Of a stretch of DNA of 64,000 nt, positions 3,541 to 11,030 are shown piece by piece; positions within the stretch are counted from its first letter, which is position 1, and each line of letters opens with the position of its first letter. Position numbers and translations under genes: made by a program. The stretch covers positions 1-64,000 of the IMG/VR virus record IMGVR_UViG_3300045972_000291; one strand, written 5' to 3'. This stretch comes from a virus. The notes under the pieces were generated by a model. It searched no databases. It saw only the letters and a list, made by a program, of their open reading frames with translations, and was not told the DNA's origin.

Positions 3541-3587
3541 TGATCTCCTTTTCCGCAATTCGGACAGCGCGCGAGCATCGGCGTCAT
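3537..3587 (-). CDS. 16-residue CPNCGK zinc-knuckle-like peptide
   Basis: A reading frame of only 16 codons whose product is MTPMLARCPNCGKGDQ. It starts inside the stop codon of the cytosine methyltransferase (ATGA) and its own stop overlaps the start of the next gene (ATGA). That double coupling is the main reason to regard it as translated rather than as a spacer. The CxxC pair resembles half of a zinc ribbon, so it could complete a metal site in a partner or simply re-initiate ribosomes. The call is tentative. Confidence 0.4.
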   Translation of the reverse strand: MTPMLARCPNCGKGDQ

Positions 3588-5647
3588 TCCGCTGCTTCGA
3601 ATAGGGTTGGAAGTTCCGCCTTGGCGCGGGACTTTTTGCGCGTCGGTTTGGCGTCTTCGTCCGGTGTGTAATTCGCGGCGACAAGGGCCTTGGCCATGAC
3701 GGGGCTGACGCTGTTGCCGCACATGCGGACCGAGGCCGTGCCGGTCAGTTTTGTGCCGTCCGGGCGGCGGTCGATCACGTAGGAATCGGGGAAGCCCTGG
3801 GCGCGGAAAAGTTCGCGCGGGCGCAACATTCGCATGCCGATATCGACGATCTCATAAGGCTCGCCGTGGACCATCACGAGGCCGAAGCGGTCGCGGGTCG
3901 GGACGGTGTGCATCGGCTCGGCCGGGCTGACGCCGTCCTTGTCGTTGCCGTAATATTTGACCAGGAAGGCGCGCACCTCGGCGCTGTGCGTGCCCTGCGC
4001 CGTCACGGTCGGATGCGGAACTTCGATGTCGCTGGCTCGGCGATCCGAGCCCTTGAGGCTCAAGAGATGTGCCGAAACCACGCCCTGTTGCGCGCCGGTC
4101 GCGGTGACCGTCGAGACCGGTTCGTCCGCCGGGCGCGAGCCGGGGCATTTGCCGCCATTATGCTGGGCGAGGAAGGCCGCGACGACGCCGATAGGAGCGG
4201 CGCCGCCCGGGCGCTTGATGAAACTGTTCGCGGTGATGGTATGCAGCGGCTCGTCGGCGCCGGAGCCGACCGATCCGGTGTTGAACTTGGTGATATGCGC
4301 CGCGACGACGCCGTGACGCGGCGCGCCGGCCATGACGGTATGCAGCGGCTCGTCGGGCAGATGGCCGACTGAGTTCTCGCTGAACTTGGTCAGGTGGACG
4401 GCGGCGAGGACGGAATCGGCCTTGGTGGTCACCGTCTGCAGGGGTTCGTCCGCCGAGCGCGGTCGCGATTGGCCGGCGCGACCGCCGCAACCGGCGATGA
4501 CGGGCACGACGATCGCGTTCTGGTCCTTCTGCGACGCGGTGATCGTGTGCAGCGGAGCATCGGCAGGGCGGTTCGCCCCGCCGTGCTGGGCGTAGGTGAC
4601 AAAAGGAGCCGGCTCAAGAACGGTCTCAACGAGGGCGTGCTTAACGCCCCCGGCGACGACGGTGCCAAGTGGCTTATCAATGCCGGGGACACGTGGCGAC
4701 TGCCCGGCGCGCTCACCATAGCCGGTCTGGATGATTGTCGGCACGACGAGACCGTGCGCGATCCCGCCGCCCGTCACCGTGCCGAGGGGCTCTTCCATAG
4801 GATATTCGCGGCGCCCGCCTGAAAAACCGTGCGCGACGGAAATGATGAAAGGCTCGGCCGCGTCGATGACATAGCGCTGCACGCCCTTGGCGATGCGCGC
4901 CATGGTCGCCTCGGCCAGCGGGCGGTTGACGCCGACGGCGCGGCCTTCCTCGCGCGTCAGGAAAATGCTGTGGCAGGGCAGCGTCCAGTCGATGATTTCC
5001 GCCGCCGTGCGCCAGGGCTGGAGCTTGCCGCTTTGGACCTCTTCGGATTTCGGATTGCCATGCGTCGGCGTCGGCCAGACGATGGGGCGGCCATCGCAGC
5101 GGGCAGCGAGAAACAGGCGCTTACGGATGGTGGGCGCGCCATAGTCGCAGGCGCGCAGTTGGCGCCACTCGACCTTGTAGCCGAGCTTTTTGAACTCGCC
5201 GACCCATTTGCGGAAGGTCTCGCCCTTGCGGCCCTCGGCGGGCCGGTCGGTCTCGTCGAGCGGGCACCAATCCTGAAACTCTTCGACGTTTTCGAGCAGG
5301 ATCACGCGCGGGCGGCGGCGTTGCGCCCAGAGGACAACAACCCACGCCAGGTCGCGGATGTTGCGCGAGAGCGGTTTGCCGCCCTTGGCCTTCGAGTGGT
5401 GTTTGCAATCCGGGCTGAACCAGGCGAGGCCGATTGGACGGCCCGGCATGACTGCATCGGGATCGATCTGCCAGATGTTCGAATTCAGGTGCAGCGTGTG
5501 CGGGTGGTTGACCTCGTGCATGGCCAGCGCGTCGGCGTCGTGATTGATCGCGACGTCCGGCGAACGTCCGAGCGCCATTTCGATGCCGGTCGAGGCGCCG
5601 CCGCCGCCAGCGAACGAGTCGAGAATGATTTCGCGCGGTGCGTTCAC
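3584..5647 (-). CDS. C5-cytosine DNA methyltransferase with repeated insert
   Basis: A 687-aa enzyme expected to methylate cytosine C5 using S-adenosylmethionine. Motif I is FAGGGGAS (residues 12-19), the motif IV region is FSPDCKHHS with catalytic Cys81, motif VI is ENVEEF (119-124), and motif VIII is TIRKRLFLAA (173-182). C-terminal motifs LRPRELFRAQGFPDSY and GNSVSPVMA close the fold. The usual PPC is SPDC here, a known variant in phage enzymes. Between roughly residues 270 and 590, where the target-recognition domain should be, the protein has about nine degenerate copies of a unit centred on ADEPLHTVT. Likely role: protecting phage DNA from host restriction or altering host methylation. 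Start is GTG 5647. Confidence 0.92.
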   Translation of the reverse strand: MNAPREIILDSFAGGGGASTGIEMALGRSPDVAINHDADALAMHEVNHPHTLHLNSNIWQIDPDAVMPGRPIGLAWFSPDCKHHSKAKGGKPLSRNIRDLAWVVVLWAQRRRPRVILLENVEEFQDWCPLDETDRPAEGRKGETFRKWVGEFKKLGYKVEWRQLRACDYGAPTIRKRLFLAARCDGRPIVWPTPTHGNPKSEEVQSGKLQPWRTAAEIIDWTLPCHSIFLTREEGRAVGVNRPLAEATMARIAKGVQRYVIDAAEPFIISVAHGFSGGRREYPMEEPLGTVTGGGIAHGLVVPTIIQTGYGERAGQSPRVPGIDKPLGTVVAGGVKHALVETVLEPAPFVTYAQHGGANRPADAPLHTITASQKDQNAIVVPVIAGCGGRAGQSRPRSADEPLQTVTTKADSVLAAVHLTKFSENSVGHLPDEPLHTVMAGAPRHGVVAAHITKFNTGSVGSGADEPLHTITANSFIKRPGGAAPIGVVAAFLAQHNGGKCPGSRPADEPVSTVTATGAQQGVVSAHLLSLKGSDRRASDIEVPHPTVTAQGTHSAEVRAFLVKYYGNDKDGVSPAEPMHTVPTRDRFGLVMVHGEPYEIVDIGMRMLRPRELFRAQGFPDSYVIDRRPDGTKLTGTASVRMCGNSVSPVMAKALVAANYTPDEDAKPTRKKSRAKAELPTLFEAAE

Positions 5648-7779: not shown

Positions 7780-8985
7780 TCAGGTCCTCACAGCTTCGAT
7801 GTAAAACTTGGAATTGATGCCGTAGCTGGCGGCAATGACGTCGTGGGGCGTCCGGCCAGCGAGCGCGCCGAGCAGGAATTTGCGGCGCGATCCGTCCGGC
7901 TCAAGCGAGCCGTTCTGGACTTCGACGATGCGGATCACGTCGCCTTTGATATTTGCGGTCATCAGCCGGCGGGCGTGGCCGTTTCCGTCCACATCCTCGG
8001 CCACGACCTCGGCTATCGCGCGGATCGGATCGAACGCGGTGACCTCGCACATGATGCGGCGCAGTTCCGCGTTCGGCTCCGCCATGATGGATTCCGCCGT
8101 GATGCGCGCCTTGTCCGTGATGATCCACGAATGATCGTCAGGGATGCGGTAGCCGTGCCAGGAATAGAGGCCCCATCCGGTGCCGGCATAGCGGATCGCC
8201 ATGCCGTCTTCGGCGTGCAGCTGGCCGCCTTGATCGAGGTGGATTTCAGAAGGGCGTTCCGACGCGAAGCAGATGCCATCCAGCGTCCAGTAGAACCCCG
8301 CGCTCGCGGTCATTTCAAGAAAGTTGCGGTCTATGGCGACCGCGCACGCCTCGTTGAAATAATCCGCCCAGGCTGAATATCCGGAATTCCAGAGTGAGCC
8401 GCCAAAGAAGGACCAACCCGCCGAGTCCACCGCCGAGCGCACCGCCGAGCCCACCGCCGAGCCCACCGCCGAGTCCACCGCCGAGTACACCGCCGAGCGC
8501 ACCGCCGAGCGCACCGCCGAGTCCACCGCCGAGCGCACCGCCGAGTCCACCGCCGAGTCCACCGCCGAGTCCACCGCCGAGCGCACCGCCGAGTCCACCG
8601 CCGAGTCCACCGCCGAGTCCACCGCCGAGCCCACCGCCGAGTACACCGCCGAGTACACCGCCGAGCGCACCGCCGAGCGCACCGCCGAGCCCACCGCCGA
8701 GTCCACCGCCGAGCGCACCGCGACGTTTTTATCGCCGCCCTCGACGAGTCGATGCTGGATGATCGCGGCGTAGCAAACCGCACTCAAGGCGGCGCTGATC
8801 GGGCAAGGTAACCAGATGACACGCGGCTCTTTGAGCTTCGCCAGCGCGTAGAGGCCGCGAATGGCGCGCTCGGCGCGGTCGCGATCTGCGGATTTGGTCG
8901 AAAGCCCGATCTCCGTCCATTTTCGGACGAATTCTGGAAAACGCGCTTTCTGTTCAGGCGTCAACGACATGATTTTCTGAGACAT
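7780..8985 (-). CDS. DUF6745-like protein with 25 SAV tetrapeptide repeats
   Basis: A 401-aa protein made of an N-terminal helical segment (MSQKIMSLTPEQKARFPEF), a tract of 25 X-S-A-V units where X is D, R, G or Y, and a C-terminal domain matching DUF6745: FYWTLDGICFASERPSEIHLD, HAEDGMAIRY, LYSWHGYRIPD, ITAESIMAEPNAELRRIM and a final LEPDGSRRKFLLG. DUF6745 proteins are found in phages and actinobacteria without known function. The start at 8985 is preceded by GGAGGT; an upstream in-frame extension lacks such a site. The repeat probably folds as a regular helix or solenoid linking the two domains and could vary in length between related phages. Confidence 0.8.
   Translation of the reverse strand: MSQKIMSLTPEQKARFPEFVRKWTEIGLSTKSADRDRAERAIRGLYALAKLKEPRVIWLPCPISAALSAVCYAAIIQHRLVEGGDKNVAVRSAVDSAVGSAVRSAVRSAVYSAVYSAVGSAVDSAVDSAVDSAVRSAVDSAVDSAVDSAVRSAVDSAVRSAVRSAVYSAVDSAVGSAVGSAVRSAVDSAGWSFFGGSLWNSGYSAWADYFNEACAVAIDRNFLEMTASAGFYWTLDGICFASERPSEIHLDQGGQLHAEDGMAIRYAGTGWGLYSWHGYRIPDDHSWIITDKARITAESIMAEPNAELRRIMCEVTAFDPIRAIAEVVAEDVDGNGHARRLMTANIKGDVIRIVEVQNGSLEPDGSRRKFLLGALAGRTPHDVIAASYGINSKFYIEAVRT
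8419..8715 (-). repeat. 12-bp tandem repeat, about 25 units, coding XSAV
   Basis: On the minus strand the unit is TCG GCG GTG plus one variable codon. The nine constant bases are identical in almost every copy, while the fourth codon alternates between GAC, CGC, GGC and TAC only. The array is uninterrupted and in frame with the DUF6745-like gene. DNA-level identity at silent positions points to recent slippage or recombination, so copy number is likely to be unstable. Confidence 0.95.
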
Positions 8986-9048
8986 GATAAACCTCCAGCC
9001 AAATGCGGTTTGGAACGCCCGCCGCTCGGACGGGCGCGCAAACAGCAC

Positions 9049-10074
9049 TTAGTCGGCGACAATCCTTTCCTCGGCGCCGGCGCTCTCGATCTGGCGCCCG
9101 ATCAGGTATTCGCCGGGTGGAATGCGGATCGTGTCGTGCTCTTCATGGCTGAGGCACATCGGCCCGGTTTCGACGATCAGGACGGCGACGGCGAGATCGA
9201 CACGGGTGATGATGCCGGCGGCGCGCATCGACTCGACGGCGGCAGGGTCGCGGTAAAGCCGCGCGGTCGGAACGGCGATCTTGCCCGCTTGCGCGTCGGC
9301 CATAAGGTCCTGGACGGCTTTCGACGTCTTGACCGGCGCAATGGCGTCCGCCGAGCGGTCCAGAAGCGCAATCGCGTGATGGTGACCGGTCGTCTCGCCA
9401 GCGGCCAAAATCAAATGGCGCCCAGATGCGGCGAAGGCCTGATGGTGCGTGAGTTCTGCCGCCGCATAAGCATCCCGCGCCGCGTCCAGGTCGTGGAAAT
9501 ATCCAAGATGCTGGCGAACATCTCCACCAAGGCAAATCCGCGCCTGCCACTTGTTCCGCTTTGAATTCCAGAAAACGCCCTTGATCCCTGACGTGCTATT
9601 TTTCGCTGGGCCAGAATTGTGCCTGTTCTGCGCGGGCGTCGCTTCCCGAAGGTTTTCGAGGCGGTTATCAACCCGGTTCCCGTTGATATGGTCGATATAG
9701 TGTTCTGGCCATTGGCCATGAACATAAAGCCACGCAAGGCGGCTGGCTTGGTGCTTCGCGCCATCAACCTTGATGAGCGTATAGCCAGCCGAATTGACAG
9801 AACCAGCGACAGTTCCTTCCCGCGCCGTTCCACCGACCGTTTTCCGCCATTTGAATTCGCCGGTCTCGGCGTCATAGGAAAGCAGATCGCGGACGCGCAC
9901 GGCGAACGGGATTTCAGGCACATACGCCGGATGGCCATGCATCTTGATCGGCGCGATTTCATCGCTGCGGTCGATCTTGATCTTTTTGGGGATCGGAATG
10001 ATGGACACGTCACCCTGGAACGCCATTCCCTTGGCGGGGTCATAATCGTGGATTGTGGAAGACGGATTTTGCAT
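9049..10074 (-). CDS. GETTGHHH-type phage protein interrupted by HNH-AP2
   Basis: A 341-aa composite. Residues 1-45 (GMAFQGDVSIIPIPK) and 217-341 (GRHLILAAGETTGHHHAI, then LSHEEHDTIRIPPGEYLIGRQIE) look like the two halves of one small phage or bacterial protein family. Between them, residues 50-214 form a complete homing-type endonuclease: HNH core WPEHYIDHINGNRVDNRLENL, then an AP2-like DNA-binding domain (GIKGVFWNSKRNKWQARI). There is no intein splice chemistry visible. The product is either a functional fusion or an interrupted host gene translated through. The gene ends 63 bases before the DUF6745-like start. Confidence 0.8.
   Translation of the reverse strand: MQNPSSTIHDYDPAKGMAFQGDVSIIPIPKKIKIDRSDEIAPIKMHGHPAYVPEIPFAVRVRDLLSYDAETGEFKWRKTVGGTAREGTVAGSVNSAGYTLIKVDGAKHQASRLAWLYVHGQWPEHYIDHINGNRVDNRLENLREATPAQNRHNSGPAKNSTSGIKGVFWNSKRNKWQARICLGGDVRQHLGYFHDLDAARDAYAAAELTHHQAFAASGRHLILAAGETTGHHHAIALLDRSADAIAPVKTSKAVQDLMADAQAGKIAVPTARLYRDPAAVESMRAAGIITRVDLAVAVLIVETGPMCLSHEEHDTIRIPPGEYLIGRQIESAGAEERIVAD
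9433..9927 (-). mobile_element. In-frame HNH-AP2 homing endonuclease segment
   Basis: This is the inserted part of the gene at 9049-10074. It encodes an N-terminal VRDLLSYDAETGEFKW region typical of the start of free-standing HNH-AP2 endonucleases, the HNH core, and the AP2 domain ending DAARDAYAAAELTHHQ. Boundaries are estimated from where endonuclease-like sequence stops and GDVSII/GETTGHHH-type sequence resumes, and may be off by about 15 codons either way. Confidence 0.65.
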
Positions 10075-10107
10075 GTGTTGATTTTCCTTCTGGGTTGAAG
10101 CGGTTGG

Positions 10108-10314
10108 TCAGTCGTCAAATTCGCCGAAGCCCTCATCGACTTCGTCTTCGTCGTCATGATCGTCGGCCCCGGAAAACGGGCACCGCTCCGGGCCGGGGCA
10201 GCCAAAACCGGGGATGGTTCCGCATCGGCATCGGCTGGCGTGCCTGCGCTCTGCGGCCTCGTGGCGGGCCTCGCGCAGATCTTCGTCGAAACCTTCGTCG
10301 CCGTGTTTCAGCAT
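10108..10314 (-). CDS. Small cysteine-containing acidic protein
   Basis: A 68-aa protein (MLKHGDEGFDEDLREARHEA) with four cysteines in SRCRCGTIPGFGCPGPERC, compatible with one zinc site, and a strongly acidic tail (DDHDDEDEVDEGF). It begins two bases after the exonuclease stop codon and lies in the same operon. No function is known; an acidic zinc protein could be a DNA mimic or an adaptor, but that is speculation. Confidence 0.6.
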   Translation of the reverse strand: MLKHGDEGFDEDLREARHEAAERRHASRCRCGTIPGFGCPGPERCPFSGADDHDDEDEVDEGFGEFDD

Positions 10315-10316
10315 GG

Positions 10317-11030
10317 TCAGGCGTCCTCTTTCCGGCGCTGCAATTCGTGTTTGACGGTGAATTTGACGTCGGGATCGGACGTGTCCTGCTTCCCGAGCCA
10401 GACCAGGTAATCGAGCGGAACTTCGGCCCATGTTTTGCCGACGTGTTTGCCGAACCGGACCTTGCGCAGGACGACGGCTTTGGTGGAAAGCTTCAGCAGT
10501 TCGTCGACGGTGTGATCCTTGAGAAGCGCGATCAGAAGATGCGCGGTCACGGTGGCGTCGGCGAGCGCCCGGTGCGCGCCTTCGCGCGGCAGGTCGATGC
10601 CGAGCCAGTAGCGCAGCGTCATGTTCGAGTGGCTGGGGGCGTCGGGCCAGACATGCAGGGCACAGCGATAGGTGTCGATCCATCGCTGGTCTCGCAGCAT
10701 CGGCAGGAATTCGCGGTCGAACCTCGCATTATGCGCGGCGACGATATCGATGCCGTTGGGCCAGTCCGGACCGATCACCAATTCGACGGCGTTCCCGAGA
10801 AGGGGCGCGCCGGAAACGTCGGCGTCGATGATGTGATGGATCGCGCTGGCCTCGGGAGGAATTGCGCGGCCGGGATTGGCGAAGGATTGCCAGCCGCTTC
10901 GGGCGACCCATCCCGGACCCGCCGCTCCGTCCAATTCGACTTTGACGGCGGCGATCTCGACGACCCGGTCTGTTGCGGGATCAAGGCCAGTGGTTTCGAC
11001 GTCGACGATATGAATGTGATCGGATGTCAT
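10317..11030 (-). CDS. DnaQ-like 3'-5' exonuclease
   Basis: A 237-aa DEDD-family exonuclease expected to remove 3' nucleotides from DNA or RNA. Exo I is HIVDVETTGLD (Asp10, Glu12), Exo II is HNARFDREFLPM, and Exo III is HRALADATVTAHLL, giving the DEDDh type with the preceding histidine. The C-terminal 60 residues contain a FGKHVGKTWAEVPLDYLVWL segment seen in several phage and bacterial exonucleases. It sits in the recombination part of the leftward operon near the RecE-like nuclease. ATG 11030 is within TGATG; a GTG lies just upstream. Confidence 0.88.
   Translation of the reverse strand: MTSDHIHIVDVETTGLDPATDRVVEIAAVKVELDGAAGPGWVARSGWQSFANPGRAIPPEASAIHHIIDADVSGAPLLGNAVELVIGPDWPNGIDIVAAHNARFDREFLPMLRDQRWIDTYRCALHVWPDAPSHSNMTLRYWLGIDLPREGAHRALADATVTAHLLIALLKDHTVDELLKLSTKAVVLRKVRFGKHVGKTWAEVPLDYLVWLGKQDTSDPDVKFTVKHELQRRKEDA

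Follow-up and report, generated by a model that had tools for sequence, protein, structure and literature searches.

The window analysed here (64,000 nucleotides, part of a virus record of 66,904 bases) was found to carry on its minus strand an open reading frame (ORF) at 10074–9049, which runs from ATG to stop without interruption and encodes the 341-amino-acid product that a first-pass annotation had proposed. This product joins two proteins in one frame, a protein of the phrog_27831 family (referred to below as the host protein) and a homing endonuclease inserted within it. The nearest homologue of the host protein, termed L044, lies on CAIZGR010000607.1, a contig from an uncultured Rhizobiales MAG (G001), and is ~87% identical in amino acids in both flanks of the insert. 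The features of the locus, with the basis of each assignment, are as follows.

10085–10091, minus strand: AGAAGGA, a Shine-Dalgarno-like site that stops 10 nt short of the fused gene's ATG (by eye)
9049–10074, minus strand: fused gene, 341 aa, consisting of the phrog_27831 host protein with the in-frame homing endonuclease insert (Pfam and PHROG profile matches)
9946–10074, minus strand: host N-terminal part, residues 1–43, as far as DEIAPI (comparison with L044)
9424–9945, minus strand: insert, residues 44–217, 174 codons, GC3 0.62 (codon comparison with L044 and alignment A9)
9907–9945, minus strand: leader or linker KMHGHPAYVPEIP, residues 44–56 (no convincing counterpart in free-standing relatives)
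9433–9906, minus strand: HNH endonuclease whose C-terminal domain is AP2-like, residues 57–214 (Pfam, phrog_99 and conserved columns)
9049–9423, minus strand: host C-terminal part, residues 218–341 and stop, GR-H-LILAAGETTGHHHAI ... HEEH ... QIESAGAEERIVAD (comparison with L044)
9385–9414, minus strand: LILAAGETTG, ten codons adjoining the insert, including the departures A224 and A225 (comparison of conserved columns)
7780–8988, minus strand: gene of a DUF6745 protein, next downstream, with a 12-nt tandem repeat (same neighbour in related loci)

The host protein was recognised by the PHROG profile phrog_27831, a family of unknown function, which matches the fused protein at residues 279–341 (E 2.4e-10) and each of the 28 sequences in the host alignment A7. 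Nothing convincing was found for it in Pfam or NCBIfam. The protein of the window retains the motif of the family (QGDV ... GE-TGHHH ... HEEH ... Q-E).

The limits of the insert were placed at approximately K44 and S217 (window 9424–9945, 522 nt, 174 codons), by a codon comparison with L044 and by alignment A9; each end carries an uncertainty of one to three codons. At this site L044 reads straight through as DEIAP-V-DG-RLILQEGEVSGHHHAI (DEIAP-VDG-RLILQEGE), while the window reads DEIAP-I-[KMHGHPAY ... FAAS]-GR-H-LILAAGETTGHHHAI, with junction residues I43-K44-M45 and A216-S217-G218-R219. The N-terminal flank is 86% identical to L044 in amino acids and 78% in nucleotides over 37 codons, and the C-terminal flank 87% and 82%, respectively, over the last 94 codons. 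The element had earlier been placed at 9433–9927, which covers residues 50–214 and misses six codons at the N-terminal and three at the C-terminal end. A source for the leader KMHGHPAYVPEIP was looked for and none was found.

Homologues of the host gene without an endonuclease were found to be the rule. A scan of IMG/VR with the host C-terminal part returned seven loci, all of which read through without an endonuclease, and a further scan with an alignment of these seven (A2) returned 31 viral and four genome loci, a set in which six of the seven contigs from the first scan recur. The insert is absent from all 31 homologues that were read at the site, and the remaining four of the 35 (L032, L033, L036, and L040) give continuous matches of normal length (345–360 nt). 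The first-pass annotation had named, as the result that would overturn it, homologues that also contain the segment; this comparison gave the opposite outcome. The existence of uninterrupted homologues therefore identifies the middle of the ORF as an insertion, and its interpretation as an ancestral domain of the family was rejected.

The inserted allele is known as a single copy, that of the window. No second one was found among the IMG/VR loci, in a pattern scan of the genome collection or in a sample of 397 genomes of the order to which G001 belongs. Twelve of these genomes match at E ≤1e-20, with matches to the host part in three (two in G001 and others in G327 and G217), and no match spans both host part and endonuclease; of the homologues in G327 and G217, the one read at the junction (L137, from G327) lacks the insert. 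The description of the gene as a conserved phage gene has to be qualified, since tblastn with the host C-terminal part against 50,697 records of named phages and 72,556 plasmids gave no match. Here, the close form was found only in IMG/VR contigs and Rhizobiales genomes. Eight records of named phages contain distant relatives of the host protein, either labelled as hypothetical or left without annotation.

It could be suggested that a host gene and a stray endonuclease were joined during assembly, the window being a virus record from a public collection of contigs. Against this, both flanks match one and the same L044 gene at similar identity, the downstream neighbour is in place, and two independent mis-joins which both keep the frame would hardly be expected. 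An artefact of this kind is considered most improbable.

The inserted sequence is that of a nearly complete endonuclease. The Pfam family HNH_3 matches residues 109–151 (E 2.3e-14), AP2 matches residues 162–206 weakly (E 0.0034, 18.1 bits against a cut-off of 33.3), and the profile of the phrog_99 HNH endonucleases matches residues 60–220 (E 4.3e-63). Where a conserved column is defined as one shared by at least 85% of 34 relatives, the insert keeps 34 of 35, and the other relatives themselves depart at between zero and five. Its sole departure is the replacement by serine of H111, which is kept in 32 of the 34 relatives. The HNH core contains D128, H129, and N141, which by comparison with I-HmuI are presumably catalytic. 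By sequence the fusion has no match among PDB chains at E up to 1. A Foldseek search with its predicted structure returned AP2 domains among weak matches (1gcc at 1.7 Å over 49 columns, probability 0.98, E 0.81).

The composition of the insert (computed on residues 43–216) is foreign to its surroundings. Its GC3 is 0.62 compared with 0.78 for the flanks and 0.78 for 15 ORFs of the window that served as reference, and its codon adaptation index is 0.605 compared with 0.697 for the flanks, although some of the reference ORFs (0.51 to 0.80) have values just as low.

Relatives of the endonuclease are common. At E ≤1e-5 the fusion matches 3044 records of the collection of named phages, all at below 60% identity, and every match among the 60 listed covers the endonuclease. 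Among the best 80 loci of a scan for the phrog_99 kind, the closest relatives are ~40–50% identical, have the same domain order and are mostly free-standing proteins, mostly of ~155–180 aa, with a start and stop of their own, unlike the insert. A survey of 92 endonuclease ORFs in 85 loci, which drew on these best 80 and included a few partial ORFs, found more than 25 aa before the domain in 13 and after it in four, with none having both. Genomes of the order gave eight more matches (L138–L145), which end at most about 20 residues from the domain. Of two phage matches that had been suspected of harbouring an embedded endonuclease, one has a separate HNH gene, and in the second no HNH gene is annotated between exonuclease and NAD synthetase.

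A related HNH endonuclease at L082:304–780 starts directly after the stop codon of an upstream gene, the product of which ends like a family A DNA polymerase. Another, at L057:2–829 (G001:C759, in the same MAG as L044), is 33% identical and lies ~1 kb upstream of a stretch that is 77% identical in nucleotides to the terminase region of the window. The latter location means that endonucleases of related phages occupy different places.

Elements by which such an insert might be spliced out were looked for in the sequence. A search of 8500–10700 on both strands with Rfam at E up to 5 detected no introns, only three chance-like matches. About 42 of the 522 nt of the insert fall outside the endonuclease domain. 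Group I intron cores are larger than this, and there is therefore no room for one. Inteins begin with Cys, Ser or Ala, end with His-Asn, are followed by Cys, Ser or Thr at position +1 and contain a splicing domain. The insert has neither Cys, Ser nor Ala as its first residue and no His-Asn at its end, and no intein family of Pfam matches the fused protein. An intein was accordingly rejected on the junction residues and the absent Pfam family, and a group I intron with an endonuclease ORF on the lack of an Rfam intron and the ~42 nt to spare. A spliced element of a kind that these models miss could be envisaged, given that the site adjoins a conserved motif as intein and intron sites do. The same features (no C/S/A start, terminal His-Asn or intein domain, and ~42 nt spare with no Rfam intron) speak against it, and it is thought very improbable. 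The proposal that the endonuclease is an in-frame insertion with no stop, intein signature or intron is thus supported, with the endonuclease near-complete.

No stop codon occurs between the insert and the host C-terminus, and the endonuclease does not have the stop of its own that a free-standing gene would have. Read by eye, the insert showed no endonuclease in either of its remaining forward frames. With the endonuclease in the frame of the host and the other frames empty, this is therefore not a hidden gene of the type reported for the ShiLan domain (see below).

A separate endonuclease might still be translated from within the fused gene, initiating at M45 or at a GTG near the start of the insert and ending with the host C-terminus, either beside the fusion or instead of it. 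There is an ATG at residue 45, two codons into the insert, GTG codons are present at 52 and 59, before or at the start of the domain, and free-standing relatives start near positions equivalent to M45–V59. No Shine-Dalgarno-like site was seen before M45, V52 or V59, whereas the main ATG is preceded by AGAAGGA, and a product so initiated would keep 124 host residues. Internal initiation is on balance quite unlikely.

The explanation which we regard as probable is the insertion in frame of a formerly free-standing endonuclease of the phrog_99 kind, now translated as an unspliced fusion of 341 aa. A free-standing HNH-AP2-type gene would have entered the phrog_27831 gene at a short turn that immediately precedes the conserved GE-TGHHH segment and would have lost its stop codon with the reading frame being kept. 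Translation from the ribosome site of the host gene would then yield a single unspliced chain, in which the endonuclease would form an inserted domain with the host chain on both sides. The fusion is presumably produced and remains intact, and the endonuclease may cut the empty site and may have spread by homing; with a single inserted copy known, its mobility and its persistence are putative. That it lives as a stable domain and tolerates or uses its host, as put forward in the first-pass annotation, is conceivable.

The effect of the insertion on the host protein was considered using predicted structures. The AlphaFold2 model of uninterrupted L044 (28 rows) has a pLDDT of 87.6 and a pTM of 0.80, and in it the insertion point (residues 44–46) falls in a turn directly before the strand 47–52. 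No solved structure like this model was found in the PDB at E ≤0.001. The model of the fused protein (from A9) has a pLDDT of 66.0 and a pTM of 0.38, with block values of 66–90 in the endonuclease region (61–210) and below 50 at residues 41–55 and 211–250. The latter region includes the LIL..GETTGHHH segment, for which the model of L044, without the insert, gives blocks of 77–94. The low confidence at 211–250 may be an effect of the alignment (A9 has only nine host rows, with the N-terminus trimmed); as it stands, the model would count against an undisturbed host fold. The host part of the fusion may still fold.

Constraint on the flanks was assessed against the same homologue. The dN/dS between the window and L044 is 0.117 (dN 0.120, dS 1.02, NG86), the lowest of 28 pairs, and polarised changes number 13 nonsynonymous and 25 synonymous on the branch of the window compared with 15 and 22 on that of L044. 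The flanks therefore show no decay and have been constrained since the split from L044, although this constraint may mostly record the time before an insertion that is possibly recent.

Conserved residues of the host are altered beside the insert. A224 and A225 replace a conserved Q (17/21) and a conserved E (21/21), and a third departure, R219, lies in a column that depends on the alignment. These make up all 3 departures in 62 conserved columns, with 3/12 near the insert vs. 0/50 elsewhere (Fisher p 0.006). In nucleotides, the best ten-codon window against L044 gave p 0.12, and the ten junction codons gave p 0.04 without correction; against L043, L042, and L023 the best window was found in other parts of the gene (p 0.06 to 0.25), with p 0.12 to 0.57 for the codons at the junction. 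A co-conversion tract was rejected, as the nucleotide patch is not significant in the scan, and the departures at the protein level are kept as a hint only. A donor for the divergent flank was sought in IMG/VR with a degenerate LAAGETTGHHH pattern, which returned nothing. The patch could be a trace of the flank of a donor, the result of relaxed constraint, or chance.

These observations bear on the possibility that the insertion is recent and disruptive, having landed in frame by chance, and that the host protein is non-functional and the allele either transient or tolerated through dispensability of the host gene. The single known copy, the altered residues beside the insert, the low model confidence at 211–250 and a host family that has no known function and is rare in named phages are all in keeping with this. 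The frame continues across all 522 nt, neither flank contains a stop, the flank dN/dS is low and the branch of the window has no excess of nonsynonymous changes, which argue in the other direction. Such a disruption is a realistic possibility that nevertheless falls short of being probable, and it overlaps with the in-frame fusion favoured above, which makes no claim for a working host part.

A close precedent was found in mycobacteriophages. According to Arsenault et al. (2025; PMC11855218), the ShiLan domain is an unspliced insertion in a DNA methylase, with its HNH endonuclease encoded out of frame. Like the present case, it is an endonuclease-encoding insertion in a phage gene which leaves the host frame without a stop, has no detectable intein or intron and is likely retained in the product. 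It differs in that the ShiLan HNH begins at a GTG and ends at a TAA of its own and that the insertion shows a disjunct distribution, while in the window the HNH, known from one copy, follows the host frame and lacks a separate stop. The same report mentions a lone LAGLIDADG in this methylase family, with neither intein nor intron detected (PMC11855218). It is similar as a homing endonuclease within a phage gene, and differs in nuclease family, in host gene and in its apparently vertical inheritance. The view that such endonucleases otherwise reside only between genes, in introns or in inteins, as the first-pass annotation had held, is too strict in the light of these published unspliced insertions in a phage methylase (PMC11855218).

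Further related systems are known. In T4-like phages, mobE and mobA are described in the split nrdA of Aeh1 and the split topoisomerase of T4 (PMC2988022). There too a free-standing endonuclease has been placed in a coding region, but the hosts are made as separate polypeptides that reassemble, whereas the window has one frame throughout. The order of HNH and AP2 domains is that of a known endonuclease family, and endonucleases interrupting other genes have been reported (PMC10448857). In mitochondria, insertions in atp6 of Allomyces and rps3 of Ophiostoma likewise alter the host coding region, and in atp6 host-like sequence is fused in frame; as summarised in PMC4019555, these involve a foreign or displaced C-terminal part of the host, as opposed to the original C-terminal part that follows the insert here. 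In the literature searched, largely papers outside subscription, no account was found of a phrog_27831 gene interrupted in frame by an HNH-AP2 endonuclease, nor of any HNH inserted in frame without splicing. The arrangement is unusual, with close precedents in print.

Homing endonucleases are thought to need splicing in order to reside safely within genes. It might be proposed that the fusion represents a third refuge besides introns and inteins, in which the endonuclease is a stably folded, unspliced domain of a working host protein, borrowing its expression from the host gene and possibly being aided by the host in nuclease binding, stability or timing. This more far-reaching proposal seems unlikely. 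A clean unspliced in-frame insertion with an uninterrupted relative that is ~87% identical nevertheless provides a small and testable system, in which it can be asked whether a selfish gene may live on as a domain of the protein that it invaded, and how homing events may give rise to fused phage enzymes. The case also points to the host protein itself, a member of an unstudied phage family that has no known function and carries a conserved histidine-rich motif.

The gene of the DUF6745 protein which lies downstream of the host gene in the window is also found there in L044 and L043. Of the 22 loci of the close family (L011–L028 and L042–L045), 12 have a DUF6745 match after the uninterrupted host gene, and the available sequence of the other ten ends within ~700 nt of the host gene. 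The phrog_27831 and DUF6745 genes may form a module of unknown function. The DUF6745 gene of the window (7780–8988, minus strand) contains a 12-nt tandem repeat at 8418–8721 (25.3 copies, 91% matches), which encodes xSAV units in varying order upstream of the DUF6745 domain. In the same part of the window, a C-5 cytosine DNA methylase of 687 aa is encoded on the minus strand at 3584–5647 (Pfam DNA_methylase, E 1.4e-24).
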